Below, piece by piece: positions 11,531 to 32,096 of a stretch of DNA of 32,103 nt. The notes beneath the pieces were generated by a model. It was not told the origin of the DNA and ran no database searches. It worked only from the letters and a program-made list of their open reading frames with translations. A program made the translations under genes and the position numbers. Location of the stretch: NCBI GenBank assembly GCA_021838305.1, contig JAKCEB010000011.1:1-32103 (forward strand), written 5' to 3'. Position 1 is the stretch's first letter. Each line of letters begins with the position of its first letter. Origin of the DNA: Actinomycetes bacterium (GTDB lineage Bacteria > Actinomycetota > Acidimicrobiia > Acidimicrobiales > Palsa-688).

Positions 11531-12844
11531 GTGAGCACGGTCAGGCTCTGGGACTCGTGGAAGCGTACCAGGCTGGTACCGAGCAGAGCGCGACGAATGG
11601 CGCTTCGACTGTCACTTGCCGTCGCTTTGCTGGGCACGTTCGTTACGTCGCTCGCAGCAGCATCGTCAGGACCCGCTCTGGTAGTCAACGGGTCGATCAC
11701 CGTCGGAACGCTGTACGCAAGCTCAGGTCAGTTTGCGGGAGCCTCGATGGCAGAGTTTGCGGGGCTGCAGGCGTGGGTACGCATCGAGAACTCCCGGGGT
11801 GGTGTGTGGGTAGGGTCCCTCCACAAGCGGATCCCCGTCAAGCTGCTGGCCTATGACGACCACAGTTCGGTCACACAAGCATCAAACCTGTACGGCAAAC
11901 TGCTGTCGAACAGTTCCGTGCGGCTTCTCGTCAGCGACTTTGGGACAGTCCTCACCTCACCAGCCGTCGCAGTCGCCAAGGAACACCAGATCTTGCTGTT
12001 CGACCAAACGGGAACTGCTTCAGAGTTCTTCGGTGGCTCCAATCCATACATCGTGCTTTGTGATCTGACAGCCTCGCAGGTTTGGCCGATACCTCTCGCC
12101 CACTTCTTGATCGCAGCGAATCTCAGACGGACTGCCGTTGTCTATGACCTGAACGGTTTCGATGCCACGCAGGATCAGACGATCGTATCGACACTGACTA
12201 AAGCTGGTGACGCACCAATTGCCAACGTATCCGTTCCGACGACGACGACGGCTTACGGCCCCACCTTGAAGCGTCTGGCCGTACTCAAACCGGACGCTAT
12301 CGTTGAGTTGGGATACCAACTCAACGACCAAGCCTTTCTTCCAGCGATTCGTCACTCACCGATACGCCCGAGAGTCGTCTTCACGGCGAATCCGGGACAA
12401 CTAGGCAACGAACTTCTGGCAGCAGATGGGCCAGCAGCACTGAACGGCACGTACACCTACGCTCTCCCACCTACAGTCGCCTATCAGCCCGTGAACGCGG
12501 GAATGCTCGAGGGACAGTTCGAGTCGATATTCGAGTCTAACGGGCACGTCTCGATCAATTTCTTGAACCTGGCTGGATACAATACCGGTGTAATAATCCA
12601 GTCCGCTCTTGCCAGCGCCACGTCTACTAGCGAGCTCGGAATCCGCGAGGCCCTCAATTCGGATTCAGGTAACCTGCACACGCTCCTCGGGACCTGGCGG
12701 ATCAACTCTGCTGGCGCGCAGGTTGCAATCCTGCCGCCGGTTGCACGGATTTCAGGGTCTACCGCCACGCACCTCTCCGCGCATGTCGTGTACCCATTGC
12801 CTGTCCAGACCGCTGTGTCTGTGGCCGCCCCGACGTCACCGTGA
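11531..12844 (+). CDS. Branched-chain-amino-acid-type (Peripla_BP_6) ABC substrate-binding protein, set 1 (no evident lipobox)
   Basis: Signal peptide 'MALRLSLAVALLGTFVTSLAAASSG', then 'ITVGTLYASSGQFAGASMAEFAGLQAWV...' similar to the window's second SBP (20723-22033). Confidence 0.87.
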   Translation: MSTVRLWDSWKRTRLVPSRARRMALRLSLAVALLGTFVTSLAAASSGPALVVNGSITVGTLYASSGQFAGASMAEFAGLQAWVRIENSRGGVWVGSLHKRIPVKLLAYDDHSSVTQASNLYGKLLSNSSVRLLVSDFGTVLTSPAVAVAKEHQILLFDQTGTASEFFGGSNPYIVLCDLTASQVWPIPLAHFLIAANLRRTAVVYDLNGFDATQDQTIVSTLTKAGDAPIANVSVPTTTTAYGPTLKRLAVLKPDAIVELGYQLNDQAFLPAIRHSPIRPRVVFTANPGQLGNELLAADGPAALNGTYTYALPPTVAYQPVNAGMLEGQFESIFESNGHVSINFLNLAGYNTGVIIQSALASATSTSELGIREALNSDSGNLHTLLGTWRINSAGAQVAILPPVARISGSTATHLSAHVVYPLPVQTAVSVAAPTSP

Positions 12845-12869
12845 GCGCTCGACCACGACCGCAGTGCGA

Positions 12870-13628
12870 CTATCCCGCAGAGGGCGAGCCGCTGAACGGA
12901 AGACCGGTTGGTACAAGTCCCTTGGCAAGGAGCTCACCGGTCGTGCCGTCGGCGACAATCCTCCCGGCATCAATGACGACCGCCCGGTCAGCGATCGCCA
13001 TGCTGCGTCCGATGTTTTGATCGACCAGCAGCATCGAAACCCCTCCAGACACGAGGTCCGGGAACTGGCCAAGTAGTTCGTCAGCCGCCAACGGTGACAG
13101 GCCGACGAAGATCTCGTCTAGGAGGAGAACGCAGGGATCCGCCATGAGAGCTCTTCCGAGGCAGCAAAGCTGTCGGTCCGAGGAGGCCAACGTTCCGGCG
13201 CTAGAACCGAGGATATCGCCAAGCGCCGGCAGCCGGTCGATTACGTCGTCGATGGAGACGCTCGAGCGACCCCAACCGCCGACAATCAGGTTCTCTCGCA
13301 CCGTCAGGCTCGGGAATACTCGGTGACCCTCAGGGACGTGCACCAATCCGTAGTTCCGACGATCCTCAGGCCCCTGCGAGCTAACGTCGACTCCACGGAT
13401 GCTGACCGACCCTTCCGACATCGCTCGAAGCCCGGACAAAGTGTTGAGAAGAGTCGTTTTGCCGGCACCATTCCGCCCGACCAGAGCAACTAGTTCGCAT
13501 CGTTCGATGCGAAGGCTTGCCCCTTTGATGATTGGGGTTCCCGAAAGCTTGACGCAAAGGTTTCGGGCTTCTACAAGCGCTACGGTGCTAGCTTCGGATA
13601 GACGATCGGCATACGACACGAGGTTCAC
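12870..13628 (-). CDS. Branched-chain-type ABC transporter ATP-binding protein LivF-like, set 1 (degenerate signature motif)
   Basis: Walker A GRNGAGKTT; signature position reads LASSDRQLCCLGRAL; Walker B VLLLDEIFVGLSP. Proposed GTG start at 13628 (VNLVSYADRLSEASTVALVEARNLCVKLSG). Confidence 0.82.
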   Translation of the reverse strand: MNLVSYADRLSEASTVALVEARNLCVKLSGTPIIKGASLRIERCELVALVGRNGAGKTTLLNTLSGLRAMSEGSVSIRGVDVSSQGPEDRRNYGLVHVPEGHRVFPSLTVRENLIVGGWGRSSVSIDDVIDRLPALGDILGSSAGTLASSDRQLCCLGRALMADPCVLLLDEIFVGLSPLAADELLGQFPDLVSGGVSMLLVDQNIGRSMAIADRAVVIDAGRIVADGTTGELLAKGLVPTGLPFSGSPSAG

Positions 13629-13665
13629 CTCGCTCCGAGGATCGTCGCGGCACTCGCATGACGGC

Positions 13666-15513
13666 TCACAATCGCAGCCTGGTAAGTCTGTTCGAGCCAA
13701 GATATGGTTCCAGCAGCACTGGATCCGTGAGGACCTCCTCACTAGTCCCGTGGCGCACTACGCGTCCTGCATCCAAGAACGCAACGCTGTCGGCTATGGC
13801 CCAAACGGCGCTCACGAGGTGTTCGACCACTATGACGGTCGATCCGCTCGATGCGAGGTTGCACACCGCGCCTACGACTACTTCGACCTCGTCTGACGAA
13901 AGACCTGCAAGGGGCTCGTCGAGGATCGCTATCTTCGGGCGCATTGCGACAACCCTGGCGATTTCAAGTCTCCTGATGCCGCCTGTCGACAGCTGCCCCG
14001 GCCGGCATTGACGCTGTTCCAGCAAGCCCAGCTTGTCGAGCGCATCCCATGCAGCTCCCTGCGCTTGACTGCGTCCTAGTCGTGGAGTCGACCCGTATGC
14101 TGCTGCGAGACCGACTTGGTCCGAAACGCTCAACCAGTGGACGGGTCTCGGCACCTGAAAACTCCTTGCCAGGCCGATCCCGGCAAGCCTTGACGGACCA
14201 GTCGCGCGAGTAGAGCATCCTTCTATCAGAACTTCGCCGCCGTCAGGACGGACCAGCGCGGAGATGCAGTCGAGGAGGGTCGTCTTGCCTGCTCCGTTCG
14301 GCCCGATGAGCGCAAGCACCTCACCCGGGCGAACCTCTAGATTCACGTCGACAAGAACGGCTCGACCGCCGAAGCGTTTGGTGAGGCCGCTGACTTCCAC
14401 GATCGGCCCCTTTACGGCGTGGCTCTTTCCGGTGTGGGCCTGTCGGGCGTTGGTCTGTCCGGCGGCCGGAGTCCCCGTCTGAATCCGACCGTGGCGTCCA
14501 AGCGCGGGGGCCATCGCCTCTGCGCTCGCCATTGTGTCAGCGTTGGCACGGGGATGCGCTGACCACTTAGCGGCCCGGGACGAGACGAGACCCCGCGGGT
14601 CGATTACGATAGCGGCCACCGTTACCGCAGCCAATGCGAGTTGGTGAGCTCCGGGCACCACGTAACCTACTGCCACCTCGAGACCCGAAAGGGCGAGAAC
14701 CCCGATGACAGGTCCCGCGACGGTGGCTCGACCGCCGAGCACGACCGCAGCCACGACGAGGACGCTGAGTCCGGGGTCGAACATTGTCGAGGGCTCGAGG
14801 ACCACGTCGTGAATCGCAGCCACCCCTCCTGCGAGCCCGGCGATAGCGCCAGACACGAGAAAGATTTCAAACGGAATAACGCGCGACGCCACGCCGCAGG
14901 CCTCCGACAGCGTGAGGTCCGCTCGCTGGAGCGTGGCTCCAGCAGCCATGCGACTGCGGCTCACGATCGCCACGACAAGCGTCGCGAGCACTGCTACCGC
15001 CCCGGCAACAAGACCGAAGTCGGCTGATCCTATGTAGGCGCCGGCTCGATGCAAGCCGACTGTACTGACAGTCAATCCGGTGCCACCCGGCGAGACAGCA
15101 CCCCACAGGCTGAACAGCTCCTCGGTACCAGCGGCGACAGCAAGGGTGACCACGGCGAAGTTCACGGCCCGTCGGCGCGGCGCCAAAAGTCCGGTCGCTG
15201 CGCAAAATACCGCTCCCCCAGCTACCGCCAAAGCTAACGACGAATAAACATTGAGGTGGAGGTACACAACGGAGAGTCCAAGGGCGTAGGCCCCGACCCC
15301 GTAGGGGGCGACCTGACCAAGGCTCGGGTATCCCCCATAACCGCCTATCAGGTTCCACGACTGCGCCAGGGCTATTTCCAGTCCGACTGTGCCCCACTCT
15401 GACGGGCTTGCAGCGACTACCGCGGTTCCTCCGAGCGCCAGGGCAACCGCCGACACGACACGCCACACCGACGAGGCAACCCCGAGACGCAGCACCGCCC
15501 TCGGCCTGGTCAC
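13666..15513 (-). CDS. Fused LivM permease and LivG ATPase of a branched-chain-type ABC transporter, set 1
   Basis: N-terminal LivM-like TM region (ALAQSWNLIGGYGGYPSLGQVAPYGVGAYALG); C-terminal ATPase (GPNGAGKTTLLDCISAL, LSTGGIRRLEIARVVAMRPKIAILDEPLAGLSS). GTG start at 15513 overlaps the livH stop (GTGA). Confidence 0.88.
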   Translation of the reverse strand: MTRPRAVLRLGVASSVWRVVSAVALALGGTAVVAASPSEWGTVGLEIALAQSWNLIGGYGGYPSLGQVAPYGVGAYALGLSVVYLHLNVYSSLALAVAGGAVFCAATGLLAPRRRAVNFAVVTLAVAAGTEELFSLWGAVSPGGTGLTVSTVGLHRAGAYIGSADFGLVAGAVAVLATLVVAIVSRSRMAAGATLQRADLTLSEACGVASRVIPFEIFLVSGAIAGLAGGVAAIHDVVLEPSTMFDPGLSVLVVAAVVLGGRATVAGPVIGVLALSGLEVAVGYVVPGAHQLALAAVTVAAIVIDPRGLVSSRAAKWSAHPRANADTMASAEAMAPALGRHGRIQTGTPAAGQTNARQAHTGKSHAVKGPIVEVSGLTKRFGGRAVLVDVNLEVRPGEVLALIGPNGAGKTTLLDCISALVRPDGGEVLIEGCSTRATGPSRLAGIGLARSFQVPRPVHWLSVSDQVGLAAAYGSTPRLGRSQAQGAAWDALDKLGLLEQRQCRPGQLSTGGIRRLEIARVVAMRPKIAILDEPLAGLSSDEVEVVVGAVCNLASSGSTVIVVEHLVSAVWAIADSVAFLDAGRVVRHGTSEEVLTDPVLLEPYLGSNRLTRLRL

Positions 15514-16358
15514 GGTGTCACCTTCCGCGTTGGAAGCAGCCAGACGCCTGCGAGGACCAATCCCAGCGCGCACAACTCGATCAGCCGGTGCGACGACCAT
15601 TCCTCAACTACGGCAGAGAGCGCGGCGAGAAGAAAGCTGGCGGCGACGGCGCCACGAAGGCTACCGAGCCGACCGGCTACTCCTGCCACCGCCACGTCGA
15701 TCGTGTATCGGTTGATTTCTGAGGTTGCGACGGCCCCCCTCCATACAGCAAACACGCCGCCTAGGGCTGCTAACGCCCCTGCTATTCCCGCAACAAGGTA
15801 TACGAGGCGCACTGAGCGAACTCCGAGGAGCCTTGCGGCGTCGTGGTCGTCGGATATCGCACGAAGAACAAGGCCGATCCGTGTGGAGCGGATAGTCCAC
15901 GAGATCGCCAGGGCTGCTGCGACACCGACCAGACCAGCGATGACATCCGGAAGTGGCACGTTCATCTTGGCGAGAGCGACCTGGTCGGTTCCCGTCTTGG
16001 TCGGGATCCATACGAAATTTGAAGTCACTAAAAGCGCTAGACCGCCGGCTAGACCGAGACCGCACGCAAAACCGACGATCAAGCGGAACAGTGGCAGCTT
16101 CAGCTCAGCGCGCCCGATGATGTAACGCCAAAGAAGGTAACCGAGAGCGAAGCCGGCGCAAACTGCGATCGCGCCAGCAAGGAGCACCGGGAAATGGAGC
16201 TCCGACTGAAGTTCCCACGACGACAGGGCCCCTACGATAACGAGGCTACCCTGCGCCAGGTTCGCGACTCCCGTCAGCCAGTACAGCAGGCTGAAACCGC
16301 AGGCGCCAAGGGCGAGAACGCCACCGCTGCCCAGGATTCCCCCGACTACAAAAGACAT
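15510..16358 (-). CDS. Branched-chain-type ABC transporter permease LivH-like, set 1
   Basis: MSFVVGGILGSGGVLALGACGFSLLYWLTGVANLAQGSLVIVGALSSWEL; LivH family motif around 'TGVANLAQGS'. Confidence 0.88.
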   Translation of the reverse strand: MSFVVGGILGSGGVLALGACGFSLLYWLTGVANLAQGSLVIVGALSSWELQSELHFPVLLAGAIAVCAGFALGYLLWRYIIGRAELKLPLFRLIVGFACGLGLAGGLALLVTSNFVWIPTKTGTDQVALAKMNVPLPDVIAGLVGVAAALAISWTIRSTRIGLVLRAISDDHDAARLLGVRSVRLVYLVAGIAGALAALGGVFAVWRGAVATSEINRYTIDVAVAGVAGRLGSLRGAVAASFLLAALSAVVEEWSSHRLIELCALGLVLAGVWLLPTRKVTP

Positions 16359-16397
16359 ACCGAGCGTGAGTTTAGAACTGCTCGGCGAAGTATGTCT
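16353..16397 (-). promoter_or_regulatory. Hairpin over the set-1 livH start codon (candidate translational control element)
   Basis: On + strand agacata (16353-16359) pairs with tatgtct (16391-16397), and ccgagc (16360-16365) pairs with gctcgg (16380-16385); 5-nt bulge, 14-nt loop. The livH ATG (16358-16356) lies in the stem. Confidence 0.45.
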
Positions 16398-16455
16398 CGG
16401 TCATGGGCAGGACCCTCGGGACTATGAGGCGTCCGTAGTACGGCGAGGCAATCCG

Positions 16456-17139
16456 CTAGCGGTCGACGAGCAAGGCCGACAGTGGATCTTTTGCTTGGAC
16501 GGATGACGACACGGCTGCCTCAAGATTCTTGCGGGCCCTCGCTATGCTTTCGCTTACTTGACGCTCTACAGCTTCGCGATCCCCGTCGCGGATCGTCGCC
16601 ACAAGCAGTCGGTGCTCGCCGGAGGCGTGGGCTTGAGGTCCCACCAACGTCGAGTACAGCCGGTTGTAGGGCTCCAGGAGATTGTTGACCTGAGTCAATA
16701 GCCGCAGCGAGTGGCGTCGACCTGACATCTCGAGCAGACGACGGTGGAAGCTGTAGTGCTGCGCTGCCCAACCCTCAGGATCCGATCCGTCCAGAGCATC
16801 CAACTGGTCAATCTGGCGGTCCAGTTGATCCAGTTGCTCGGGGCTCACACGTCCTACCACGGCCGCTGTCAGGGACGGTTCGAGCTGTGATCTGAGGTCA
16901 AACAGCTCGTCTAGCTCCTGGACGTGCAGCTCGGTGACCATCGCGCCGGAGCCCGGCTGCATTACTACAAGGCCCTCGCCGACCAAGGTACGCAGAGCTT
17001 CACGAAGGGGAATCCTGCTGACTCCGAAGCGGCGCGCCAGGTCGTCCTGGTTGAGCGCTTCGCCCGGAAGCAGCAACCTTTCCCTGATCGCCCTGCGCAT
17101 CATGTCAACGATCTCGTCAGGTCTTGGGCGCCTCTGCAT
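16456..17139 (-). CDS. GntR-family transcriptional regulator, FCD (FadR-type) subfamily
   Basis: wHTH 'LNQDDLARRFGVSRIPLREALRTLVGEGLVVMQPGSGAMV' plus FCD region 'FDLRSQLEPSLTAAVV...HYSFHRRLLEMSG'. Confidence 0.93.
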   Translation of the reverse strand: MQRRPRPDEIVDMMRRAIRERLLLPGEALNQDDLARRFGVSRIPLREALRTLVGEGLVVMQPGSGAMVTELHVQELDELFDLRSQLEPSLTAAVVGRVSPEQLDQLDRQIDQLDALDGSDPEGWAAQHYSFHRRLLEMSGRRHSLRLLTQVNNLLEPYNRLYSTLVGPQAHASGEHRLLVATIRDGDREAVERQVSESIARARKNLEAAVSSSVQAKDPLSALLVDR

Positions 17140-17210
17140 CGCTACATGCTACGGGTGTGTCACGCGGCGCTGGGAACTTCTTTGCTCCCTTTCCGCACTA
17201 GTCGGCACCA

Positions 17211-17954
17211 TCAGCCCTCCAGACCAAAGAAGGCTTTTCGAAGAGCATCGTCGGCTTCGAGTTCGCTCACCGTTCCGGCAAAACCCACCCTGCCGCCTTC
17301 GATGACGACGACGTGGTCGGCGATTTCTGTGAAGGCGATGTTCTGCTCCGCTATGAGCATCGACGCGCCCCGGTCTGCGCGCACTTTCGCTAAGGCACCG
17401 ACGACCTCTTTGACCGCCAGCGGTGAAAGCCCAGAGGATGGCTCGTCCATGACGATCAGCTTCGGACTGGCGGCTAGGGCCTTTGCCACTCCGACGAGCT
17501 TTCTTTGACCACCGGAGAGACTCCCAGCCGGTGCCCTGCGACGCTGCGCCAGGACCGGGAACGCGGAGTAGATCGCTTCGATACTTTCGTTGGCAGCCCG
17601 CCTCCCGCAGCTGTAGGCCCCGAGGGAAAGGTTGTCGTGAACTGACATGTCAGCGAACACGGCTTTTTCAGTCATGTACGAGATTCCCCTGGCGACCCGC
17701 TGGTCTGTTCGCATCGTTCCGAGTGGTTCGCCAAGAAAGTCGATCTCCCCTCCGCGAAGTTCTATTAGACCCATGATCGTTGCGAGCGTCGTCGATTTCC
17801 CTGCTCCGTTCGCGCCAAGGAGCACTACACAAGTGCCTTCTTGAACTTGAAAGTTGATGTCCCAAAGGACCTGCATCTGAGCGTATCCACCCTCGACATG
17901 GCGCAGCTGAAGAATCGACGCGGCGGCCGCCTTCGCAGCCTGGACGTCAGCCAC
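17211..17954 (-). CDS. Branched-chain-type ABC transporter ATP-binding protein LivF-like, set 2
   Basis: GANGAGKSTTLATIMGL, canonical LSGGQRKLVGVAKAL, LIVMDEPSSGLSP. Proposed GTG start at 17954 overlapping the livG stop. Confidence 0.9.
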   Translation of the reverse strand: MADVQAAKAAAASILQLRHVEGGYAQMQVLWDINFQVQEGTCVVLLGANGAGKSTTLATIMGLIELRGGEIDFLGEPLGTMRTDQRVARGISYMTEKAVFADMSVHDNLSLGAYSCGRRAANESIEAIYSAFPVLAQRRRAPAGSLSGGQRKLVGVAKALAASPKLIVMDEPSSGLSPLAVKEVVGALAKVRADRGASMLIAEQNIAFTEIADHVVVIEGGRVGFAGTVSELEADDALRKAFFGLEG

Positions 17955-18705
17955 CGAGGAACACCTGTATGACGTTAGGCTGGCGTAACGCGTCAACCAG
18001 GGAGCCTTCAAAGATAACCTGCCCGGCGTTCAGCACCACCACATCCTCGGTCACCCTCTCCAAGAAACCCATGAGGTGCTCGACGACGAGGAGGGCGATC
18101 CCCCAGCGCTCGGCAATCTCTCTCAGCATTACAGCAACCTCATCCAGTTCGCTCACCGAAAGTCCGGCTCCGAGCTCGTCGACACATAGCAGCCGGGGCG
18201 CCGTCGAAAGCGCTCTGGCGAGGTCAAGTTTCTTTTGCTCTGCGGCGGTAAGTTCCTCAGACGGCCTCGAGGCGACCCTGTCAAGTCGTGTAAGAGCAAG
18301 AATTTCTTCGACCGACCGGCGACCCTTACCGTAGCGGGCTGCAACCTCCACGTTCTGGCGCACTGTCAGACCCGTGAACGGCTTGGGGATCTGAAAAGTC
18401 CTATTGATACCTAGGTGGGCGAGGCGGTGAGGCGCCCGACCGCTGACGTCCTCCCGGTCGAACAGAACTTTGCCACGCTTAGCGGCCACGAGACCTGTCA
18501 CGACGTTGATCAGAGTCGTCTTACCCGAACCGTTCGGTCCGACGAGGCCGAGCGCTCGTCCAGTATCAAGGGTGACGCTCACGTCGTCGAGGGCCATGAA
18601 ATTGCCGAACAGAACGCTCACGGATCGAACTTCGAGCAGCCGCGCACCCGCCGACGTTGGTCCCGCAGTGCCAACAGCCGTCGATGACTGAGCTTGGGGA
18701 ATCAT
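17947..18705 (-). CDS. Branched-chain-type ABC transporter ATP-binding protein LivG-like, set 2
   Basis: SVLFGNFMALDDVSVTL, GPNGSGKTTLINVVTGL, LTAAEQKKLDLARAL, LLCVDELGAGLS; C-terminal LivG-type tail. Confidence 0.9.
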   Translation of the reverse strand: MIPQAQSSTAVGTAGPTSAGARLLEVRSVSVLFGNFMALDDVSVTLDTGRALGLVGPNGSGKTTLINVVTGLVAAKRGKVLFDREDVSGRAPHRLAHLGINRTFQIPKPFTGLTVRQNVEVAARYGKGRRSVEEILALTRLDRVASRPSEELTAAEQKKLDLARALSTAPRLLCVDELGAGLSVSELDEVAVMLREIAERWGIALLVVEHLMGFLERVTEDVVVLNAGQVIFEGSLVDALRQPNVIQVFLGG

Positions 18706-19724
18706 TTGGACCTTCGACCGAGCACGGACGCTCCGAGTGAAGCAAGGCCCCGAGGCACGAACAGGACTATCACCACGATAAGGAGACCATAGATCAGCTG
18801 GAAGTACTGCGGAACGGTTATTCCAATCGCGTTGTAGATACCGTACAGCACCACCGTCCCAACGATCGGGCCTACAACAGTTCCGATACCTCCGAAGAGC
18901 GCAAATATGATTGCAAAAACTGACGTCGTCAGGCTAAAGACGTCACCGGGATAGAACACCGAAATGACCCACGCATAGCATGCGCCACCGAGACCGGCCA
19001 TCGCCGCAGAGATGACCCACGCAAAGGTTCGGACTTTCACTACGTTGATTCCCGACATGGATGCCGACGAGCGGTCCGCCTTGATCGCGCGAAGAGCCAG
19101 ACCAAAAGGTGAATGTTTTATCCAAACGACGGCAACCGTCACCAACCCTAAGGCGACGACCGTGCTCACGTAGCTTGCGCCGGGGTTGAACACAGATGAC
19201 AAGTTCGCCCCGTACGCTCCGTTGGTAATCCCCTGTGCAGAGGGATTCGACACGAGAAGAACCAAGGCTTCCGCAGCAGCGAGACTAGCGATTGCAAAGT
19301 ACGAGCCGCGTAGTCGCAGGAGAGGCGACAGCACCAACGCCACCACCACTGACACCACCACACCCGCCACGAGGCCTGGGTAGGCTCCCATATGGAACTT
19401 CGAGGTGCTGACGGCCATGCCGTAGGCGCCGGCACCGAAGAAGCCTACGAAACCAAACGGAAGGTAGCCGGTGAAGCCGTAACTGACGTTGATCCCCTGT
19501 GCGAGGATCATGTACACCATCAAGTTTACGAGTAGAAGAGTATTCGCTTCGAAGCTACGGCCGAATGCGAAGACTCCTATTACGACCAAGGCAACAGCGG
19601 CGTCGCCCACTAACGACCGATTTCTGAACAGCCGGATCACACGATCCTTCGAGGCCGTTCCTGAAAGCTCGCCCACCACAGTCCCGTCGTCACGCAACAC
19701 GGACTTGGCTCCCGAATAGCCCAC
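18702..19724 (-). CDS. Branched-chain-type ABC transporter permease LivM-like, set 2
   Basis: AQGINVSYGFTGYLPFGFVGFFGAGAYGMAV; ATGA overlap with livG (18702-18705). Confidence 0.9.
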   Translation of the reverse strand: MGYSGAKSVLRDDGTVVGELSGTASKDRVIRLFRNRSLVGDAAVALVVIGVFAFGRSFEANTLLLVNLMVYMILAQGINVSYGFTGYLPFGFVGFFGAGAYGMAVSTSKFHMGAYPGLVAGVVVSVVVALVLSPLLRLRGSYFAIASLAAAEALVLLVSNPSAQGITNGAYGANLSSVFNPGASYVSTVVALGLVTVAVVWIKHSPFGLALRAIKADRSSASMSGINVVKVRTFAWVISAAMAGLGGACYAWVISVFYPGDVFSLTTSVFAIIFALFGGIGTVVGPIVGTVVLYGIYNAIGITVPQYFQLIYGLLIVVIVLFVPRGLASLGASVLGRRSK

Positions 19725-20568
19725 TCGGCCGTATCAGCATCACCGCAAGGAGGAGCCCGTATGGGATGACTCCTGACCATGAGGGCGCATACGCCTGGGC
19801 GAGATTGTATGCGCATCCCAAAACGACGCCGCCGGCGATGGAGCTGATCGGATTGCCAAGCCCCCCGATGACGATCACTGTGAACGCGAAGGTGGTCACT
19901 GCGACCCCCTGAGCTGGGTCTGTGCCGCCTCGGATGAAGATCGAGAGTGACCCGGCGGATGCCGCGAGAAACAGTCCGACTCCTAGGCAGATTGCTGACA
20001 CCCTCTTCACGTCGATTCCTACTGAAGCAGCGTCATCAGGTGAGCTCATCACCGCACGCGTCGCCAGGCCAAGCCTTGTGCGGTACAGGTAGATGTAGAT
20101 TGCGCCGAACACCGGTACCGCGATGGCGGCTCCAAGGACCCAGTAGAAGGGGTATCTTTGCCCGAGGATGCTCACCGAGGAGGCGCCGAGGCTCGACTCG
20201 GGAAGCGCTCGGCGATTCGAGGTGAACACAATGGTTGTAACCGCTTCGATAGCCTGCGCGATCCCGAAGAACAGTATCAGCGAGAGCATTTCGGGATCCG
20301 ACGAACGCTGCAATCTAGGTGTCACGGCGTAGAAGATCACCGCACCCAGAACCAGCGACGGCGGGAAAGCTATAAGGCCGGCAATAAGCGGATTCAAATG
20401 CCAGGTGTTTGACAGCTCCCAGGTCAGGTACGACCCGAGGACGACTACAGAGCCGTGGGCGAGGTTGACGAAGCGAAGGACACCGAAGACCAGGTTCAAG
20501 CCAACCGCCAGAAACCCGTAGAACATGCCGGTTAGCACACCGCCTATCAATGCAAACTCAAGTAGCAC
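19690..20568 (-). CDS. Branched-chain-type ABC transporter permease LivH-like, set 2
   Basis: LLEFALIGGVLTGMFYGFLAVGLNLVFGVLRFVNLAHGSVVVLGSYL. GTG at 20568 has upstream SD 'gggagagg-cagtta-GTG'; the ORF track starts at GTG 20622. Confidence 0.88.
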   Translation of the reverse strand: MLLEFALIGGVLTGMFYGFLAVGLNLVFGVLRFVNLAHGSVVVLGSYLTWELSNTWHLNPLIAGLIAFPPSLVLGAVIFYAVTPRLQRSSDPEMLSLILFFGIAQAIEAVTTIVFTSNRRALPESSLGASSVSILGQRYPFYWVLGAAIAVPVFGAIYIYLYRTRLGLATRAVMSSPDDAASVGIDVKRVSAICLGVGLFLAASAGSLSIFIRGGTDPAQGVAVTTFAFTVIVIGGLGNPISSIAGGVVLGCAYNLAQAYAPSWSGVIPYGLLLAVMLIRPSGLFGSQVRVA

Positions 20569-20631
20569 TAACTGCCTCTCCCTTCCCCTCAGCCACGGCG
20601 CCTGCTTTCGATGTTTGGTCACCTCCGCGGA

Positions 20632-20704
20632 TCCTCGTCGAGCCGGCGACGGTCGCCCAGTGGTACAACACCACAGTGCGCTCGGCGCACGGCGTCGACG
20701 AGGA
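20632..20704 (-). other. Structured intergenic element (long outer stem enclosing three hairpins) between SBP and permease genes
   Basis: + strand tcctcgtcga (20632-20641) pairs with tcgacgagga (20695-20704); enclosed hairpins ggcga-cgg-tcgcc, gtggt-acaac-accac and gtgcg-ctcgg-cgcac. Confidence 0.65.
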
Positions 20705-20722
20705 GTCCTCAGTCGAGCTGGG

Positions 20723-22033
20723 TTACGGAGCTGGGTAAACGGCGGCCCCAGTCGCCTTGCTCTTAGGCCAGACGATCGTAACCTTTGTAGCGCTTCCCGA
20801 GCTGGCGGGCAAAAGCTGCGCTACGGGCAGCGGAAAACCGGTCTGCGCACCTTGGGCGTTCATACTGAACGGACCTATCAGCGTCGAGAACTTACCCGAC
20901 TGGGAAAGGACTCCAGCTCGTAGTGCGGTCTGTGAGAGCGATGTTGCGTTGGCAAGAGCCTGCTCTACGACCAGCCCGGCGTTGTAGCCAGCGATGTCCT
21001 CGAAGTTGATGTGCGTCTTGCTCGCATACGATTCGAACGCCGTCGTGAAGCTGGACAAGCCGAGGCCGACGCTGGGGTTGTTATGAACCAACGCTGGAGG
21101 AGCACCGTAGGTATACGTGTAGGCGAGTCCAGATGCGCCCACTGCAGCTTCCACTTGACTGTGGTTTTGCCCAGGAAACACGGTGAACACATAGGGGAAT
21201 TTGGTACCCGACGAGTGCAGTTGCTTGAGGAAAGCTATGTCGTTGGCTTCATAGCCGAGTTCGAGGAAGGCGTCCGGCTTCTTGGCGGCTACCTCCTGGA
21301 TCAGCGTGGTATATGAAGTTGTGGCGGTCGGAACAGACTGGAAGAAGCTCACATTGATGCCTTCCGCCGCCAGCCCCTGCTTGTAGGTGTTCGCCTGCGC
21401 CTGGTCGAAGTCGTTTGCTCCGTAGACGATCGCGACGTTCTTGATCCCGACCGACTTCATGAAGGCGACCGCTGGTTGAGGCCAGATCGACGAGACCGGC
21501 AGTGACGTCAACACGATGTAGGGATCGTTGTTCGAAGCTTGGAAGAACGTGGTTCCGGTGCCGCTGACATCGAAGAGCAGCTGCTTGTTCTCTTTGGCGA
21601 TGGTCACAGCGGGAGCTGTGAGGACAGACCCAAAGTCCGAGAGCAGGATGTTGACGTGGTTCTGCGTTATCAGCTGCGTGTAAAGAGTCCCGGCTGTCGA
21701 TGTGGAGCTCTGGTCGTTGTAGGACACGAGCTTGATAGGAATCTTCTTGTTGTATGCCTTGACGTAGGCACCCCCGGACGCATCGACTTCATGGACCCAG
21801 AACTTGATTCCCTCGTATTCGGGAAGCGACGAGACGGCGAAGCTGCCGGTCCCCGCGTAAAGAGTACCTACGGTGATAGCCGCTGGTGCCGGGCCTGCAG
21901 CCGCACCGGCCGCCGCTGAAGTGGCAGAGGGCGCCACAGTCGTTGCGGTCGTTGTCTTTGATGAGCTACCGCAGGCAGCGGCGAGTACTGCCCCTGTCAC
22001 AAGCGTGACGTGCAGCTTCGTTTTAATCTTCAT
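20723..22033 (-). CDS. Branched-chain-amino-acid-type ABC substrate-binding lipoprotein, set 2
   Basis: MKIKTKLHVTLVTGAVLAAACGSSSKTT lipobox (LAAAC); 'ITVGTLYAGTGSFAVSSLPEYEGIKFWV...'; SD 'agggagg' upstream of the ATG at 22033. Confidence 0.92.
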   Translation of the reverse strand: MKIKTKLHVTLVTGAVLAAACGSSSKTTTATTVAPSATSAAAGAAAGPAPAAITVGTLYAGTGSFAVSSLPEYEGIKFWVHEVDASGGAYVKAYNKKIPIKLVSYNDQSSTSTAGTLYTQLITQNHVNILLSDFGSVLTAPAVTIAKENKQLLFDVSGTGTTFFQASNNDPYIVLTSLPVSSIWPQPAVAFMKSVGIKNVAIVYGANDFDQAQANTYKQGLAAEGINVSFFQSVPTATTSYTTLIQEVAAKKPDAFLELGYEANDIAFLKQLHSSGTKFPYVFTVFPGQNHSQVEAAVGASGLAYTYTYGAPPALVHNNPSVGLGLSSFTTAFESYASKTHINFEDIAGYNAGLVVEQALANATSLSQTALRAGVLSQSGKFSTLIGPFSMNAQGAQTGFPLPVAQLLPASSGSATKVTIVWPKSKATGAAVYPAP

Positions 22034-22142
22034 GTTCCGAGTAACCCTCCCTGTGAGCTGAACTTGACACAGCCACGCCACTCACGCCCCAGACAACCCC
22101 GACTGACCCGGGTGAGCGAATGAACGCAATATCTACTAGATA

Positions 22143-22260: not shown

Positions 22261-23376
22261 CTAGCGCGCCGGCGCACCACTTCCGTGCCTACCGTCGAGA
22301 GCGCCTCGCGCTGCATCGCCGAGACCGTTACGTGAATTGGGTATCCGCCTGAGTTCACCTACCAGCGAACCGATCCCCACGCCACCCACCGACACGACGA
22401 CTAGCACTAAGGGAAGGCCCAAATGCGCGAGGTTGTGCACGTGGACTCCGGTCGACACGCTGAGCGACGCGAATCTCGGAAAGGCGATCCCGATAGCGCC
22501 GCCCACCACGAACGCTACGCCGCCGATACCGAGAGTTCTCGCCGCGACGACCAGACCAAGTCGGCGGCTGACCTCCGGTGAGGCACCCTTGCGGCGCACC
22601 AGCCATCCGACAAGGCCCCCAACCATCACCTGCACGATGGTTGTACCGAGCCCGAAAAGTGCCCCCGGTACCCACCCCCATAGCGCCGACGGCATCGACG
22701 GGGCGAGAACTGTGTAGACGATCAGAGCGAACGCACCGAAGCCCCAGCCGGCAATGAATCCATGCAGCGCGGGCATCCACGGCCGCGGGTCGACGAGGTC
22801 CGGTTCGCCGCAGTCTTCGCAGCCGTCTGGTGCCCAGTGCGGTCCCGCCCCGAGGTCAACGCCTCCGTGGACGTGAGCGTGAATAGGGCCGTGCTCGCGA
22901 TCGGTCGGGTGCCTGGGTGAAACCTCACCCGACAGAGCCAGTTCCTGGCGTGCCTCGTCGGGGGCGACGGGTGCTTCCCGGGGTTTGAGCACGTGGAGAT
23001 GCAGGTCGAAATGCCAAGGCAGTTTCCCGCCACGGATGTAGCGGGCTGCCCAGAACATCGCCACCCCGACAACGACATAGACGACGTAGTCGCCTCGGGA
23101 TCCGAGAGTCAGGAACTGCCCCAACGCCAAGAAAGCGAGCTCGCTGGCGATCGACCGCTGAAGGGTGAAGGCAAGAGAATAGATCAGCGCGTTGCGCATC
23201 CCTGCCCGACTGGAATACCCTCCGACGGCATAGGAGAACGTGATCGGCCACGTGTGCTCGTCGGGAGTTACCCCGTGGACCATCCCGAGAAGCAGTGCCG
23301 TGGCCATCACCGTCCAGAGGGCCAGGCCGGCGTGCGGGCTCCACAGGTCGAGAGCAAGCAACGAGCCGCTCAGCAT
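22261..23376 (-). CDS. UreH / nickel-cobalt (NiCoT/RcnA-like) membrane transporter family protein
   Basis: Multi-TM; 'LLLGMVHGVTPDEHTWPITFSYAVGG' histidine motif in TM1-2; His/Cys-rich loop 'HPTDREHGPIHAHVHGGVDLGAGPHWAPDGCEDCGE'. ATG at 23376 (MLSGSLLALDLW) preferred over 23460. Confidence 0.72.
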   Translation of the reverse strand: MLSGSLLALDLWSPHAGLALWTVMATALLLGMVHGVTPDEHTWPITFSYAVGGYSSRAGMRNALIYSLAFTLQRSIASELAFLALGQFLTLGSRGDYVVYVVVGVAMFWAARYIRGGKLPWHFDLHLHVLKPREAPVAPDEARQELALSGEVSPRHPTDREHGPIHAHVHGGVDLGAGPHWAPDGCEDCGEPDLVDPRPWMPALHGFIAGWGFGAFALIVYTVLAPSMPSALWGWVPGALFGLGTTIVQVMVGGLVGWLVRRKGASPEVSRRLGLVVAARTLGIGGVAFVVGGAIGIAFPRFASLSVSTGVHVHNLAHLGLPLVLVVVSVGGVGIGSLVGELRRIPNSRNGLGDAARGALDGRHGSGAPAR

Positions 23377-23496
23377 GCGGCTGTCCCGCTCGCGCTCTCC
23401 ACACTTGCGCTCTCCACGCTTGACAGGGTATCGGCATCCAGATAATGCGCACCGGAACATCCGGAGGCGTCCTCAGGAAGACTGTGAGCGTTTTTA

Positions 23497-23585: not shown

Positions 23586-25832
23586 ATGGACCTGAGCGGA
23601 CCATGGCGCGTCGCGGCGTCGACTGAGGACCTGCGCCGGTCCTTCACTGACGAAAGCTTCGACGACAGCGGGTGGGAGCCCGCTATGGTCCCCGGCCACT
23701 GGCGATCAGTCCCGACCCTCAGCGATTCAGATGGACCCGTGCTCTATCGCAAGCGCTTCACTACCCGCTCCCCTACTCCGTCACGGCGCTTCTTCCTCAT
23801 CTTCGACGGGTTGTTCTACCAGGGGAGCGTGTGGATGGACGGCCACTACCTCGGCGACACGGAGGGGTACTTCTACCCGCATTCATTCGAGATCACCCAA
23901 CAGCTCGCCGCCGGCGACGAGCATCTTCTGGCGCTTGAAGTAAGTTGTTCGCCTCCAACTGACTGGACCGCGAAGCGCAACGTAACGGGAGTTTTCCAGC
24001 ATTCGCCATATATCGATCCTGCATGGAATCCAGGGGGTATATGGGGACGAGTCCACATAGACGAGACCGGCCCGCTTCGGATCGTGTCGTTAAAGGTCCT
24101 CTGTCAGGAAGCGAACTCGGATCGTGCGACCCTCGACTTGGAGGCTGAAGTCGACAGCCTTGGCCCGCTTGGGGCTACGTTGCGGACACGGGTATCTAGG
24201 ACGAATCTGCTTCCGCCAGCGACTCGCGAACAACCGGCCGGTTCCGGTCCTAATACCGCCGCCGCACTGACGGGCGAGACGGTGAGGAAGTCCGAGCACA
24301 ACCTATCCGCCGGGACGAATCGCCTCCGCTGGACGGTGGCGGTGGAATCCCCCGACTTATGGTGGCCGAGAGCACTAGGCAATCAACCTCTCTACGGAGT
24401 CGACGTGGACGCGGCAATCACGGACGCCACCCCGCCAGCCGACGGACCCACTCCAGCCGACGGACCCACTCCAGCCGACAATTCAGCCGTGAGCGATCGA
24501 CGTCAAGTCGTCACAGGTCTGCGACAGTCGCGCTTGCGCAGCTTCGTTACGACACTCAACGGAGAGCGGATGTACTTAAAGGGCGTCAACTGCGCCCCAA
24601 CACGGCGGGATATCGCCACCGCGACTCCAGCCGAGGTGGTCCGCGACGTGAGATTGGCATCGGAGGCCGGTTTCGACTTGATGCGTCTGGACGGTCACAT
24701 CGCTCGCCCCGAGCTCTACGCCGAAGCGGACCGCTTGGGCATGCTTATCTGGCAGGACCTGCCGTTGAAATGGGGCTACGCAGCGATCCGCCGCCGGGCC
24801 GCAACCGAAGCGCGTCGAGCGGTGCGCGTTCTCGGTCATCATCCGAGCATCGTCGCTTGGTGTGCCCACAACGAAGCGTTTCGGGTCGACTCGGCCCCAT
24901 CGGACTTCCAGAGGCGACAAACACCGCTTCGCTCGGCCGCAACCTCGGTCCGACCCGACTGGGATGCGGCCCTCTTGGACCGCACTTTGCGGCGAGCCTT
25001 GGAATCCGAGGACGGCACCCGCGCGGTGATAGGCCGGTCCGGAGCGCTTCCTCATCCGGGTGGGGCGACCGACAGTCACCTGTTCTTCGGCTGGTCCTAC
25101 GGCGATGCGGCTGGTCTGGCCGGTCTGATTTCCCGGCTGCCGATCGCCGGCCGGTTCGTCGGAGCTTTCGGGGCACAATCCGTCCCCGACTCCGCCGACT
25201 TCATGGACCCTCGCGGCTGGCCGGACCTCGACTGGGATGGACTCGCCGCGCACTTCGGGATGGACACGCAGACCTTCCAAGAAAGACTGCCGCCTTCGCA
25301 TTTCGCGACCTTCGACGAGTGGAGGGCCGCAAGCCAGCGACTGCAGGCAAACCTGCTCCGCTATCAGATCGAGACACTTCGCCGCCTCAAGTACCGCCCC
25401 TCAGGTGGGTTCTGTGTCTCGATGCTCGCCGACGCGCAGCCGGCGGTTTCGTTTTCGCTGTTCGACCACAACCGACTTCCCAAAAGCGCTTACCGGGCTG
25501 TCCGCGCGGCTTGTGCGCCGCTGATCGTCTGCGCAGACCGGCTTTCGGCGACCTATAGCCCCGGGGATCGGGTGTCTCTCAGCGTGCACGCCGTCAACGA
25601 CATGCGCCGGCCTGTCGAACGCGCCACCGTGGAGGCGGTGATCCGCTATCCGGGCGGTGAGCGGCGCTGGCGATTCGAAGGCGAAGTTCCGGCCGACTCG
25701 TGCGTGCTCATTGCGAAACCGTCATTCGCGCTTCCTCAGTCCACCGCTCCCGGCCGGCTCGTGGTCGAACTAGCGCTCGGCTGGGTCGGCGGACGAGCAT
25801 CTAACCGTTACCTTGCCTCCGTCAACATGTGA
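23586..25832 (+). CDS. Glycoside hydrolase family 2-like protein (beta-mannosidase-type architecture), nucleophile position apparently substituted
   Basis: Sugar-binding domain 'VLYRKRF...FLIFDGLFYQGSVWMDGHYLGDTEGYFYPHSFEIT'; TIM barrel 'GVNCAPT...LIWQDLPLKWGY...HHPSIVAWCAHNEAF'; 'RFVGAFGAQSVPDSADFM'. Confidence 0.85.
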   Translation: MDLSGPWRVAASTEDLRRSFTDESFDDSGWEPAMVPGHWRSVPTLSDSDGPVLYRKRFTTRSPTPSRRFFLIFDGLFYQGSVWMDGHYLGDTEGYFYPHSFEITQQLAAGDEHLLALEVSCSPPTDWTAKRNVTGVFQHSPYIDPAWNPGGIWGRVHIDETGPLRIVSLKVLCQEANSDRATLDLEAEVDSLGPLGATLRTRVSRTNLLPPATREQPAGSGPNTAAALTGETVRKSEHNLSAGTNRLRWTVAVESPDLWWPRALGNQPLYGVDVDAAITDATPPADGPTPADGPTPADNSAVSDRRQVVTGLRQSRLRSFVTTLNGERMYLKGVNCAPTRRDIATATPAEVVRDVRLASEAGFDLMRLDGHIARPELYAEADRLGMLIWQDLPLKWGYAAIRRRAATEARRAVRVLGHHPSIVAWCAHNEAFRVDSAPSDFQRRQTPLRSAATSVRPDWDAALLDRTLRRALESEDGTRAVIGRSGALPHPGGATDSHLFFGWSYGDAAGLAGLISRLPIAGRFVGAFGAQSVPDSADFMDPRGWPDLDWDGLAAHFGMDTQTFQERLPPSHFATFDEWRAASQRLQANLLRYQIETLRRLKYRPSGGFCVSMLADAQPAVSFSLFDHNRLPKSAYRAVRAACAPLIVCADRLSATYSPGDRVSLSVHAVNDMRRPVERATVEAVIRYPGGERRWRFEGEVPADSCVLIAKPSFALPQSTAPGRLVVELALGWVGGRASNRYLASVNM
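24435..24479 (+). repeat. 18-bp tandem repeat (about 2.5 copies) encoding (PADGPT)n
   Basis: ccagccgacggacccact at 24435-24452 and 24453-24470 identical, then ccagccgac. Confidence 0.95.
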
Positions 25833-25871: not shown

Positions 25872-26324
25872 ATGACGGAAAAAACGCCTGGCCATGCCGA
25901 CTCTCGCTCCTCGCCGCCGGAGGAGCCGATGCTGGTGTTCCTCTCCGAGAAATGGTTCGAGAAAGTCATGGAATGCGCCCGAGTCGATCTCGAGCTGGCT
26001 GGCGAAACATTCGTAGTGGAGCAGATCGTCGAGGGCACCCCGGACGGGACGGTCCGCTACAGAGTGCAAGCAGCAGCTGGGATTTCCCGGGTCGCGTGGC
26101 CCGTGCCCGCAGACGCGCCTGATCCGGATTTGACTGTTACCTGTCAATGGGACACGGCAGTGGAGATCGCCTCGGGGCGGCTGATTGCAGGCCAGGCTCT
26201 GCTGGACGGCAAACTTCGCGTCCGCGGCAACCCTTCTTCGAACCTTTTGGCGGATGGAACCGAGTTTGCTGATCCGCTGCCCGCCGAGGTCCGCCGTATC
26301 ACGAACTTCGCTCCATGCGGATAA
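25872..26324 (+). CDS. SCP2 sterol-binding-domain-like protein
   Basis: MLVFLSEKWFEKV..., 'VRYRVQAAAGISRVAWPVPADAPDPDLTVTCQWDTAVEIASGRLIAGQALLDGKLRVRGN' resembles the SCP2 core. Confidence 0.65.
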   Translation: MTEKTPGHADSRSSPPEEPMLVFLSEKWFEKVMECARVDLELAGETFVVEQIVEGTPDGTVRYRVQAAAGISRVAWPVPADAPDPDLTVTCQWDTAVEIASGRLIAGQALLDGKLRVRGNPSSNLLADGTEFADPLPAEVRRITNFAPCG

Positions 26325-26780: not shown

Positions 26781-27773
26781 ATGACTGCCACGCCAGTTAG
26801 AGTTGCTGTGACAGGTGCCGCCGGGCAGATCGGCTACAGCTTGCTGTTCCGTATTGCAAGCGGCGCGATCATGGGACCGGATCAGCCGGTCATCCTGCAA
26901 CTTCTAGAAGTGACGCCGGCGCTCTCCGCCCTTCGTGGGGTCGTGATGGAACTCGACGACTGCGCTTTCCCGCTTCTCGCGGATGTGGTCGCCACCGACG
27001 ATCCGAACGTCGCCTTCGCCGACGCGAACATTGCGCTGCTCGTAGGGGCCCGCCCGCGAAGCAAGGGGATGGAACGCAAGGACCTCCTTGAAGCGAACGG
27101 GGCAATTTTTTCCGCGGCAGGAAAGGCCCTATCCGACAACGCTGCCAAGGACATAAAAGTTCTCGTGGTCGGCAACCCTGCGAACACGAATGCGCTGATC
27201 GCAATGCACAACGCCCCGGCGATACCTGCCGAGCGATTCACAGCGATGACACGCCTCGATCAGAACCGGGCCAAGGCGCAGCTCGCAGCGAAGTCCGGCC
27301 GGACTGTCAGCGACGTCACCAACATGGCCATATGGGGCAATCACTCGGCAACGCAATACCCCGACATCACCCATGCCCGCATCGGGGGCGCCCCCGCACC
27401 AGAGGTAATCGGCGACCACGACTGGGTGGTCAGCGAGTTCATTCCCGTGGTTCAGCAGCGGGGCGCTGCGATCATCGAAGCCCGCGGGGCGTCGAGCGCC
27501 GCATCTGCTGCGAGCGCCGCTATAGATCACGTCCACGACTGGATGGCAGGCACGAGCGAAGGCGACTGGGTGTCGATGAGCGTGCCCTCCGACGGGTCCT
27601 ACGGGGTTCCCGAAGGTCTCATCTCGTCGTTTCCGGTCACGACAAGCGCCGGGCAGTACAGCATCGTCCGGGGACTGACAATCGACGAGTTCTCTCAGGA
27701 TCGGATCGACAACACGGTCGCGGAGCTCGCCGAGGAGCGCGACGCCGTGCGCTCCCTCGGGCTACTACCCTGA
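26781..27773 (+). CDS. mdh: Malate dehydrogenase
   Basis: [64 protein letters not shown]. Confidence 0.97.
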
Positions 27774-29942: not shown

Positions 29943-32096
29943 GTGGATTTACCCGCGCCTCGACTCGGCGTCCTTGCGTCCGGAACAGGCACCGTCCTAT
30001 CCGCGATTCTCGCTTCCGGCCTGCCGGTTTCGTTGGTGCTCGTGGACCGGCCCTGCGCTGCGCTCGACCTGGCAGCCGGCGCGGGAGTGCCAGCCGTGGT
30101 GGTCGAGCGCAGCAATTTCGCCGCAGGCTTCGATCGTGTCGCCTACACAGCCCGGGTGTGCGAGACGCTCGCGGCGCATCGCGTTGACGTGGTGGCGATG
30201 GCGGGCTTCGGTACAGTCCTCGCCGCGGCGATGTTCGAGCGATACCCGGGGCGGGTCCTGAACACCCACCCGGCGCTTCTGCCGGCGTTCAAGGGCTGGC
30301 ACGCAGTACGCGATGCTCTCGCCGCGGGCGTCCGGGTGACCGGGACCACCGTCCATGTGGCAACCGAGGACGTCGACGCTGGGCCTATCCTCGCCCAAGA
30401 GGCTGTCGTAGTTCTAGACGACGACACCGAAGCCAGCCTCCACGAGAGGATCAAGGAGGTGGAGCGCCGGCTCTACCCTGAGACGATCCGTGATTTTCTT
30501 GGGGGCCTAACCCAGACCCACCCCGACACGCAAAGGAGACGACCGATGAGGGTCCTGCTCTCGGTCTACGACAAGACCGGCCTCGAAGACTTCGCACGAT
30601 CTCTCGCCGAGCTCGGACACGAACTGATAGCGAGTGGGGGCACGGCAAGCGCCCTCGAACAGGCGGGTGTCGCCCACAGCAACGTCGAGTCGGTTACCGG
30701 CGCACCCGAGATGTTGAGCGGACGGGTGAAGACTCTCCACCCCCGGATCCACGGCGGCATCCTCGCCGACCTGTCCAATCCATCGCATCGGGCCGATTTG
30801 GAAGGCGAGTCGATCGATCCGATAGGGCTCGTGGTCTGCAACCTCTACCCTTTCCGCTCAAACCCTTCGATAGAGCTGATCGATGTGGGCGGCCCCACCA
30901 TGGTGCGCGCAGCGGCGAAGAACTGGGCGCATGTGGGCTCTCTTGTCGATCCGGCCGACTACGGCGAAGTGCTCGGGGAGCTGCGTGAGTCAGGCTCGCT
31001 CAGTGCCGGCATGAGACGTCGCCTCGCCGCGAAGGCTTTTGCGCATACCGCCGCCTACGATTCGGCGATAGCAAACTGGTTCGCGGCTAGCGATACCAGC
31101 GCAACCGACGCGAACAGCGGCGGTGAGGTTGGCACCAGCGGCTCCCTGCCCGCAACGCTGCACTTGTCGTTGGAGCGAGTTGAGGATCTGCGCTACGGAG
31201 AGAATCCCCATCAACGCGGCGCCCGCTACCGCAAGGTCGGTGAACCCAGCTGGTGGGACGGCGTCGTCCAGCACGGCGGCATGGCGCTGTCTTATCTCAA
31301 CCTCTACGACGCGGACGCCGCGTGGCGCCTTGTCCACCAGCTCGCGGACCTCGGGCCCGCAGCGGCGGTAGTCGTCAAACACGCGAACCCATGCGGCGCG
31401 GCAGTCGCCCCAGATGCCCTCACTGCCTACAACCGGGCGTTCGAGTGCGACCCGATGTCGGCGTTCGGAGGTATCGTCGCCCTCGGCGGCCTCGTCAGCG
31501 AAGAGGTCGCCGCAGAGATGGTCACGAACGCGAAGGCAGACGTTCTGATAGCGCCAGGATTCGAACCAGAGGCCCTCGCGCTGTTTGCTGCGAAGCGTAA
31601 GAACATGAGGGTCCTCTCGGCTCCGCCTCCGAGCGACGAGCCTTTGCATCTCCGCCAGATGAGCGGCGGCTGGCTGGTCCAAGACCAGTACCGCTTCGAT
31701 TCGACGCCCGCCGAATGGCGCGTCGTGACGAAGGCGCAGCCAACCGACGAGAACTGGCGCGACATGCAACTCGCCTGGAGGGTGTGCGCGCAGGTGAAAT
31801 CCAACGCGATCGTGCTCGCCGCCGACGGCATGGCGGTCGGAATCGGGGGAGGCCAGCAGAACAGGGTGACGCCCGGCGAGATCGCATCAACACGCGCCGC
31901 CGGAAGGGCAAAGGGGGGCGCAGCCGCAAGCGACGCCTTCTTCCCGTTCCGTGACGGCCTCGACGCGTGCGCGTCTGCCGGTGTCGCCGCAGTGATCCAG
32001 CCGGGAGGATCGGTGAGCGACGACAAGGTGATCTCTGCAGCAGACGAGCACGGACTCGTCATGGTCTTCACCGGGGAAAGGCAGTTCCAGCACTGA
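29943..32096 (+). CDS. purN-purH: Fused phosphoribosylglycinamide formyltransferase (PurN) - AICAR transformylase/IMP cyclohydrolase (PurH)
   Basis: N-terminal PurN: LGVLASGTGTVLSAIL, VLNTHPALLPAFKGWHAVRDALAAGVRVTGTTVHVATEDVDAGPILAQ. C-terminal PurH from 30546: MRVLLSVYDKTGLEDFARSLAELGHELIASGGTA..., KHANPCGAAVA, FECDPMSAFGGIVAL. No stop between them. Confidence 0.92.
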   Translation: MDLPAPRLGVLASGTGTVLSAILASGLPVSLVLVDRPCAALDLAAGAGVPAVVVERSNFAAGFDRVAYTARVCETLAAHRVDVVAMAGFGTVLAAAMFERYPGRVLNTHPALLPAFKGWHAVRDALAAGVRVTGTTVHVATEDVDAGPILAQEAVVVLDDDTEASLHERIKEVERRLYPETIRDFLGGLTQTHPDTQRRRPMRVLLSVYDKTGLEDFARSLAELGHELIASGGTASALEQAGVAHSNVESVTGAPEMLSGRVKTLHPRIHGGILADLSNPSHRADLEGESIDPIGLVVCNLYPFRSNPSIELIDVGGPTMVRAAAKNWAHVGSLVDPADYGEVLGELRESGSLSAGMRRRLAAKAFAHTAAYDSAIANWFAASDTSATDANSGGEVGTSGSLPATLHLSLERVEDLRYGENPHQRGARYRKVGEPSWWDGVVQHGGMALSYLNLYDADAAWRLVHQLADLGPAAAVVVKHANPCGAAVAPDALTAYNRAFECDPMSAFGGIVALGGLVSEEVAAEMVTNAKADVLIAPGFEPEALALFAAKRKNMRVLSAPPPSDEPLHLRQMSGGWLVQDQYRFDSTPAEWRVVTKAQPTDENWRDMQLAWRVCAQVKSNAIVLAADGMAVGIGGGQQNRVTPGEIASTRAAGRAKGGAAASDAFFPFRDGLDACASAGVAAVIQPGGSVSDDKVISAADEHGLVMVFTGERQFQH

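Follow-up and report, generated by a model that had tools for sequence, protein, structure and literature searches.

The window analysed here is a 32,103-nucleotide stretch of an Acidimicrobiales assembly (GCA_021838305.1, contig JAKCEB010000011.1). It contains a gene for a GH2-like protein that has alanine where a retaining glycosidase of this family carries its catalytic nucleophile. The question raised by this locus is whether the alanine is an error, the mark of a decaying enzyme, or the sign of a pocket that serves another purpose. In GH2 retaining hydrolysis, a covalent glycosyl-enzyme is formed on a Glu nucleophile. Because this Glu is required for the glycosyl-enzyme intermediate, canonical retaining hydrolysis by the window protein should be impossible.

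Architecture and predicted fold of the GH2-like protein

As listed in Table 1, the gene encodes beta-sandwich domains, a TIM barrel and a C-terminal beta-sandwich. The Pfam models Glyco_hydro_2_N2 (PF22666) and Glyco_hydro_2_N (PF02837) exceeded their cut-offs, while PF00703 and the barrel model PF02836 stayed under theirs. None of the NCBIfam GH2 equivalogs (GalA, GalB, LacZ4 and others) was reached, the best score being 62.8 bits against a curated cut-off of 900. The AlphaFold2 model, computed from a family alignment of 27 sequences, had a pLDDT of 85.6 and a pTM of 0.88. In Foldseek, the solved structures closest to the model were those of a GH2 exo-beta-mannanase and of beta-mannosidases (E about 1e-47 to 1e-44, ~20% identity), and the match to 6BYI (TM 0.76, E 5e-48) extended the GH2 fold over the whole chain. 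The protein is thus confidently predicted to adopt a GH2 beta-mannosidase-like fold.

The GH2 beta-mannosidases and exo-beta-mannanases BtMan2A (2JE8/2VJX) and XacMan2A (6BYC, 6BYE) have the same architecture and fold, and their catalytic loops align with those of the window protein. The differences are the low identity (~20%), the natural Ala at the nucleophile position and, at position 369, His or Asp in place of Trp. The engineered nucleophile mutant 6BYG (E575A), which was among the Foldseek matches, carries the same change as the natural Ala527.

No signal peptide is apparent, since the MDLSGPW start leads directly into the first beta-sandwich, and the protein is probably cytosolic. Its PADGPT linker repeat occurs in the window species only and is missing from the sister species. 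A consensus promoter scan around the gene found no sigma-70 site.

Table 1. Positions of the GH2-like gene, its pocket residues and its conserved downstream neighbours in the window
Feature	Position	Strand	Remark
GH2-like protein gene	23586..25832	+	748 aa; beta-sandwich domains, TIM barrel (about residues 320-640), C-terminal beta-sandwich
18-bp tandem repeat, 2.5 copies	24435..24479	+	PADGPT repeats in inter-domain linker of the GH2-like protein
Arg367	24684..24686	+	strand-2 Arg; in 55/55 nucleophile-less and 89/89 Glu-bearing members
Asp369	24690..24692	+	loop-2 substrate position; His in 77/89 Glu-bearing members
Glu430	24873..24875	+	acid/base position, present; Asn429 before it
Arg484	25035..25037	+	His in 82/89 Glu-bearing members; altered in same lineage as nucleophile
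Ala494	25065..25067	+	strand-6 loop before TDSH; Gly in 87/88 Glu-bearing members
Nucleophile loop RFVGAFGAQSVP	25152..25187	+	residues 523-534
Ala527, codon GCT	25164..25166	+	column of GH2 nucleophile Glu
SCP2-like protein	25872..26324	+	next gene downstream; linkage conserved in genus and family
Malate dehydrogenase	26781..27773	+	conserved neighbour

Alanine at the nucleophile position

An earlier note on this DNA had described a beta-mannosidase-type GH2 protein with its nucleophile Glu replaced. The ORF reading confirmed the V-G-A codons that it gave (Val525-Gly526-Ala527, GTC GGA GCT, 25158-25166) and its start of the loop; the loop end at 25185 was two bases short. In an alignment with 110 relatives, whose Glu-bearing orthologues read RFVSEFGAQ, Ala527 falls in the nucleophile column, and the phmmer alignment to BtMan2A places RFVGAFGAQSVP opposite RFMSEFGFQSFP. 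Both comparisons agree with the replacement, and the alignment that the note had asked for gave no displacement of the nucleophile to another column: the loop-7 position of the Glu is occupied by Ala527. The acid/base pair is present, as had been stated. It lies in AHNEAF (residues 427-432, 24864-24881), where Asn429 precedes the strand-4 acid/base Glu430; residue 429 is Asp in both sister species.

Among beta-mannosidases, subfamilies GH2_13 and GH2_17 have Trp instead of the loop-2 His (PMC12243196). This Trp is missing here, the residue being Asp369 in the window protein and mostly His in the family. Position 369 pairs with Trp395 of BtMan2A, a loop-2 position near C2/C3 (role from PMC12243196). 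Members with an altered NE motif are described for GH2_19 and GH2_21 (PMC12243196); these have a substituted acid/base but an unaltered nucleophile, whereas the window protein has lost the nucleophile.

The earlier note had also proposed that the alanine may come from a recent micro-frameshift or a sequence error, and TCGGAG does survive one frame over in the window sequence. An artefact of assembly or sequencing, or two compensating micro-indels, has nevertheless almost no chance of being the explanation. An in-frame Ala codon is carried by three genus genomes that were assembled separately, and the TCGGAG 6-mer, read as a frameshift trace, does not occur in either sister species (GTTGGAGC). 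The genus genomes are incomplete, fragmented assemblies, and that of the window is 77% complete with 5% contamination; the two sister genomes agree with it on Ala527. Both encode RFVGAFGA by different synonymous codons (GTT GGA GCT TTC and GTT GGA GCG TTC), so that the genus as a whole reads GTC/GTT-GGA-GC(T/G)-TTC. Close relatives outside the genus all keep the frame and read RFV[SG]E[FL]GAQ, with GT(C/G/A)-(AGC/AGT/TCG/GGC/GGG)-GAG-TTC and unchanged length. The nearest other genera all have Glu, and with Ala shared by all three genus genomes this pattern goes beyond chance. As the closest Glu-bearing genera have either GTC AGC GAG TTC or, with Gly526, GTC GGG GAG TTC, and Gly526 members thus already exist in the family, ordinary substitutions would suffice to produce Ala527.

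Recurrent loss of the nucleophile across Acidimicrobiales

The GH2-like family is an Acidimicrobiales-wide orthologue, sampled here from relatives of the organism, a named-genome scan and 397 genomes of the order. The named-genome scan placed nearly all close relatives in Acidimicrobiia metagenome genomes, and a match at E up to 1e-60 was found in 187 of the 397 order genomes. Glu occupied the nucleophile column in 97 of 158 non-redundant sequences; the others had Ala (29), Gly (19), Ser (4), Gln (3), Asp (2), Val (1), Leu (1) or a gap (2). A residue other than Glu was therefore present in 59 sequences, in 52 of which it was Ala, Gly or Ser. Both catalytic Glu were found in 81 of the 158 sequences and neither in 29. 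Among the Glu-bearing Acidimicrobiales orthologues, L008-L010 are 56-57% identical to the window protein, alignable over the full length and carry an HNEP acid/base motif. Unlike the window protein, they have an intact RFVSEFGAQ nucleophile loop, His369, His484 and Gly494.

In trees computed without the catalytic columns, at least 7 changes between Glu and non-Glu were needed for 102 rows, and at least 10 for 145 rows, 8 of them on starred (well-supported) branches. The query genus forms a fully supported clade nested within a Glu-bearing clade, and Glu is likewise present in the distant outgroups (Chloroflexota, Burkholderia, Vibrio, Bacillota), so Ala527 is a loss. As judged from these comparisons, nucleophile loss is not unique to the window genome or its genus and recurs across the order. 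L164 (G004), from the window's own family, has a highly degenerate nucleophile loop, VRFVALRAATAVP, with AGADYL in the acid/base region, and is likely a further independent loss.

A 2025 survey described the GH2 nucleophile as an invariant Glu across 23 subfamilies (PMC12243196), yet it has been dropped in more than a third of the orthologues sampled here, in at least 8-10 separate events. In the literature search, no paper joining Acidimicrobi* with pseudoenzyme was found, and none relevant to GH2 proteins that naturally lack the nucleophile. GH2 proteins of Acidimicrobiia that carry a beta-mannosidase or beta-galactosidase annotation may often be misannotated.

Residues R367, H371, Q390, W425, G502 and W503 are unchanged in all 55 nucleophile-less sequences compared. 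Positions 369, 429, 430, 484, 494 and 623 are far more variable in these members, with some parallel changes, an association that is partly phylogenetic. Too few informative pairs were available for the independent-pairs tests of nucleophile loss with H484, G494 or the acid/base to reach significance in most pairings.

Selection on nucleophile-less members

Between the two sister species, NG86 dN/dS was 0.176 overall; residues 300-750, a part that contains the barrel, gave 0.10-0.13. Across the order, the median was 0.196 (0.068-0.267) for 13 non-overlapping nucleophile-less pairs and 0.22 (0.089-0.457) for 15 Glu-bearing pairs (Mann-Whitney, p = 0.12). There is no sign of relaxed selection after nucleophile loss. 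Out of 180 columns conserved at 90% or more in Glu-bearing members, 10 are altered in all three genus members, among them 484 and 494 in barrel loops.

Genomic position of the GH2-like gene

In the usual locus of the order, the GH2-like gene is preceded by a divergent moxR-like ATPase gene, which a vWA gene often follows, and sdhC-sdhA-sdhB lie downstream. Counted over loci with enough flank, and with moxR, vWA and sdh identities judged by eye from sequence, sdhC or sdhA was found on the same strand within 3.5 kb in 38/53 nucleophile-less and 42/74 Glu-bearing loci, and moxR near the GH2-like gene in 34/48 and 45/62, respectively. This same genomic place indicates that the nucleophile-less proteins are the same orthologue and not a diverged paralogue. 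The locus is therefore a natural replicated experiment in turning a glycosidase into something else, with Glu-bearing and nucleophile-less orthologues at the same genomic position. Order-wide (L031-L222), the gene lies between moxR/vWA and sdhCAB whatever its catalytic state. In the window lineage, the downstream genes encode the SCP2-like protein, a 72-aa protein, malate dehydrogenase and then, on the opposite strand, isocitrate dehydrogenase.

Outside the window's family, moxR/GH2 is preceded in many loci by a GH1-like gene (Pfam PF00232). It is absent from the window, and the window genus gave weak, distant GH1 matches only. Its acid/base and nucleophile are both intact in five loci only, every one with a Glu-bearing GH2; one of the five belongs to a distant outgroup from Chloroflexi. 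Of 43 loci counted as nucleophile-less, including 3 gapped at the GH2 nucleophile column, 36 had a dead GH1-like protein and 7 one with a gap at a catalytic position; with a Glu-bearing GH2, the GH1-like protein was dead or gapped in 17 of 22. These are raw counts, with species redundancy left in and phylogeny ignored. The GH1 partner seems to lose its catalytic function earlier than the GH2 protein or at the same time. In every readable locus with a nucleophile-less GH2, the GH1-like catalytic pair NE..E has become DD/ED..G/A. L048, L047, L198 and L308 are examples of the intact form, and L056, L057, L063, L064, L067, L070 and many others of the dead form.

Possible functions of the nucleophile-less protein

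The window protein is best explained as a functional pseudo-GH2, probably a cytosolic carbohydrate-binding protein that reuses the old pocket, a reading to which we give a probability of roughly 0.6. The earlier note had suggested a pseudo-glycosidase or a repurposed binding protein, which the loss of Glu with the NE pair kept supports. In the ancestor of the genus, the catalytic Glu of the order-wide orthologue would have changed to Ala by ordinary substitution, together with neighbouring residues of the pocket (His484 to Arg, Gly494 to Ala and loop-2 His369 to Asp). The former active-site pocket may now bind a sugar in the cytosol, and the protein could act as a sensor, carrier or scaffold. 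That the pocket has been retained under purifying selection speaks for binding of a ligand. The strand-2 Arg assists the nucleophile in GH2 (PMC12243196). Arg367 has persisted without its usual carboxylate partner, which suggests that the vacant place is now taken by an anion or a polar group of the ligand. From sequence comparison, the pseudo-GH2 lineage is old, conserved and recurrent, and its role is most likely carbohydrate binding or regulation. A part as regulatory partner of an active paralogue was rejected, since the gene is present in one copy each in the window genome and in the 90%-complete sister genome. Klotho (GH1) and heparanase-2 are animal pseudo-glycosidases that have kept the fold, lost catalytic carboxylates and act in binding or regulation; they differ from the window protein in family, host and evolutionary history.

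Simple decay of the gene, after a useless enzyme was lost, would agree with the greater variability of the six pocket positions in nucleophile-less members. This explanation is very unlikely, and already largely contradicted by the normal-length open frame in all three genus members, by dN/dS values level with those of Glu-bearing pairs and by the conserved gene neighbourhood. An intact gene under strong purifying selection argues for a functional pseudo-glycosidase. What speaks against pure binding is the retention of Glu430 and Asn429, which binding does not require, and the recurrence of Arg484 and of an acid at 369 together with the loss could reflect a rebuilt catalytic site. One version is that Asp369 has assumed the role of the nucleophile in the query genus. 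Acid at 369 was seen in six nucleophile-less sequences, from the query genus and a Ser527 clade (L062, L169, L176), and in no Glu-bearing one. Most nucleophile-less lineages have no acid there, and the position corresponds to BtMan2A Trp395 near C2/C3, not to the anomeric face; this relocation appears quite improbable. A nucleophile shifted to a nearby residue was rejected as well: within two residues of 527, no acid was found in nucleophile-less members, except for two with Asp at 527 itself.

Catalysis might also have been rebuilt around an anion from outside the protein, for instance phosphate. Bound by Arg367, and perhaps also by Arg484, this anion would attack from the face vacated by Glu, with Glu430 as acid, in an inverting phosphorylase-like reaction. 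The replacements are mostly small (Ala, Gly or Ser in 52/59), as in engineered glycosynthases, which use the same small residues. Arg367, the partner of the lost Glu, is kept in 55/55, and Arg484 occurs in 18/55 nucleophile-less members against one Glu-bearing member, having arisen separately in the query genus and in a Gly527 clade, mostly with Glu430 retained. Phosphate would also be plentiful for an apparently cytosolic protein. On the other side, 24/55 nucleophile-less members have lost the acid/base Glu as well, and we know of no GH2 phosphorylase. Such a reaction is an unlikely alternative to the pseudo-GH2 binding protein, and it is somewhat less likely still that a GH2-derived, non-hydrolytic, anion-dependent catalyst (Glu lost, Arg367 and Glu430 kept, Arg484 gained) evolved repeatedly in Acidimicrobiales.

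Other features of the window

Divergent from the GH2-like gene, positions 22261-23460 (- strand) hold a 399-aa membrane-protein-like ORF without a Pfam match. It takes the place of the moxR found in other genera, both in the window and in sister genome L124. Positions 11531-22081 contain branched-chain amino-acid type ABC transporter genes, with two binding proteins and several permeases and ATPases, adjoined by a GntR regulator and a TPP enzyme. At 29943-32096 (+ strand), a single ORF combines PurN-like formyltransferase and PurH-like (MGS plus AICARFT/IMPCHase) domains, an apparent PurN-PurH fusion that is present in the sister genomes too.
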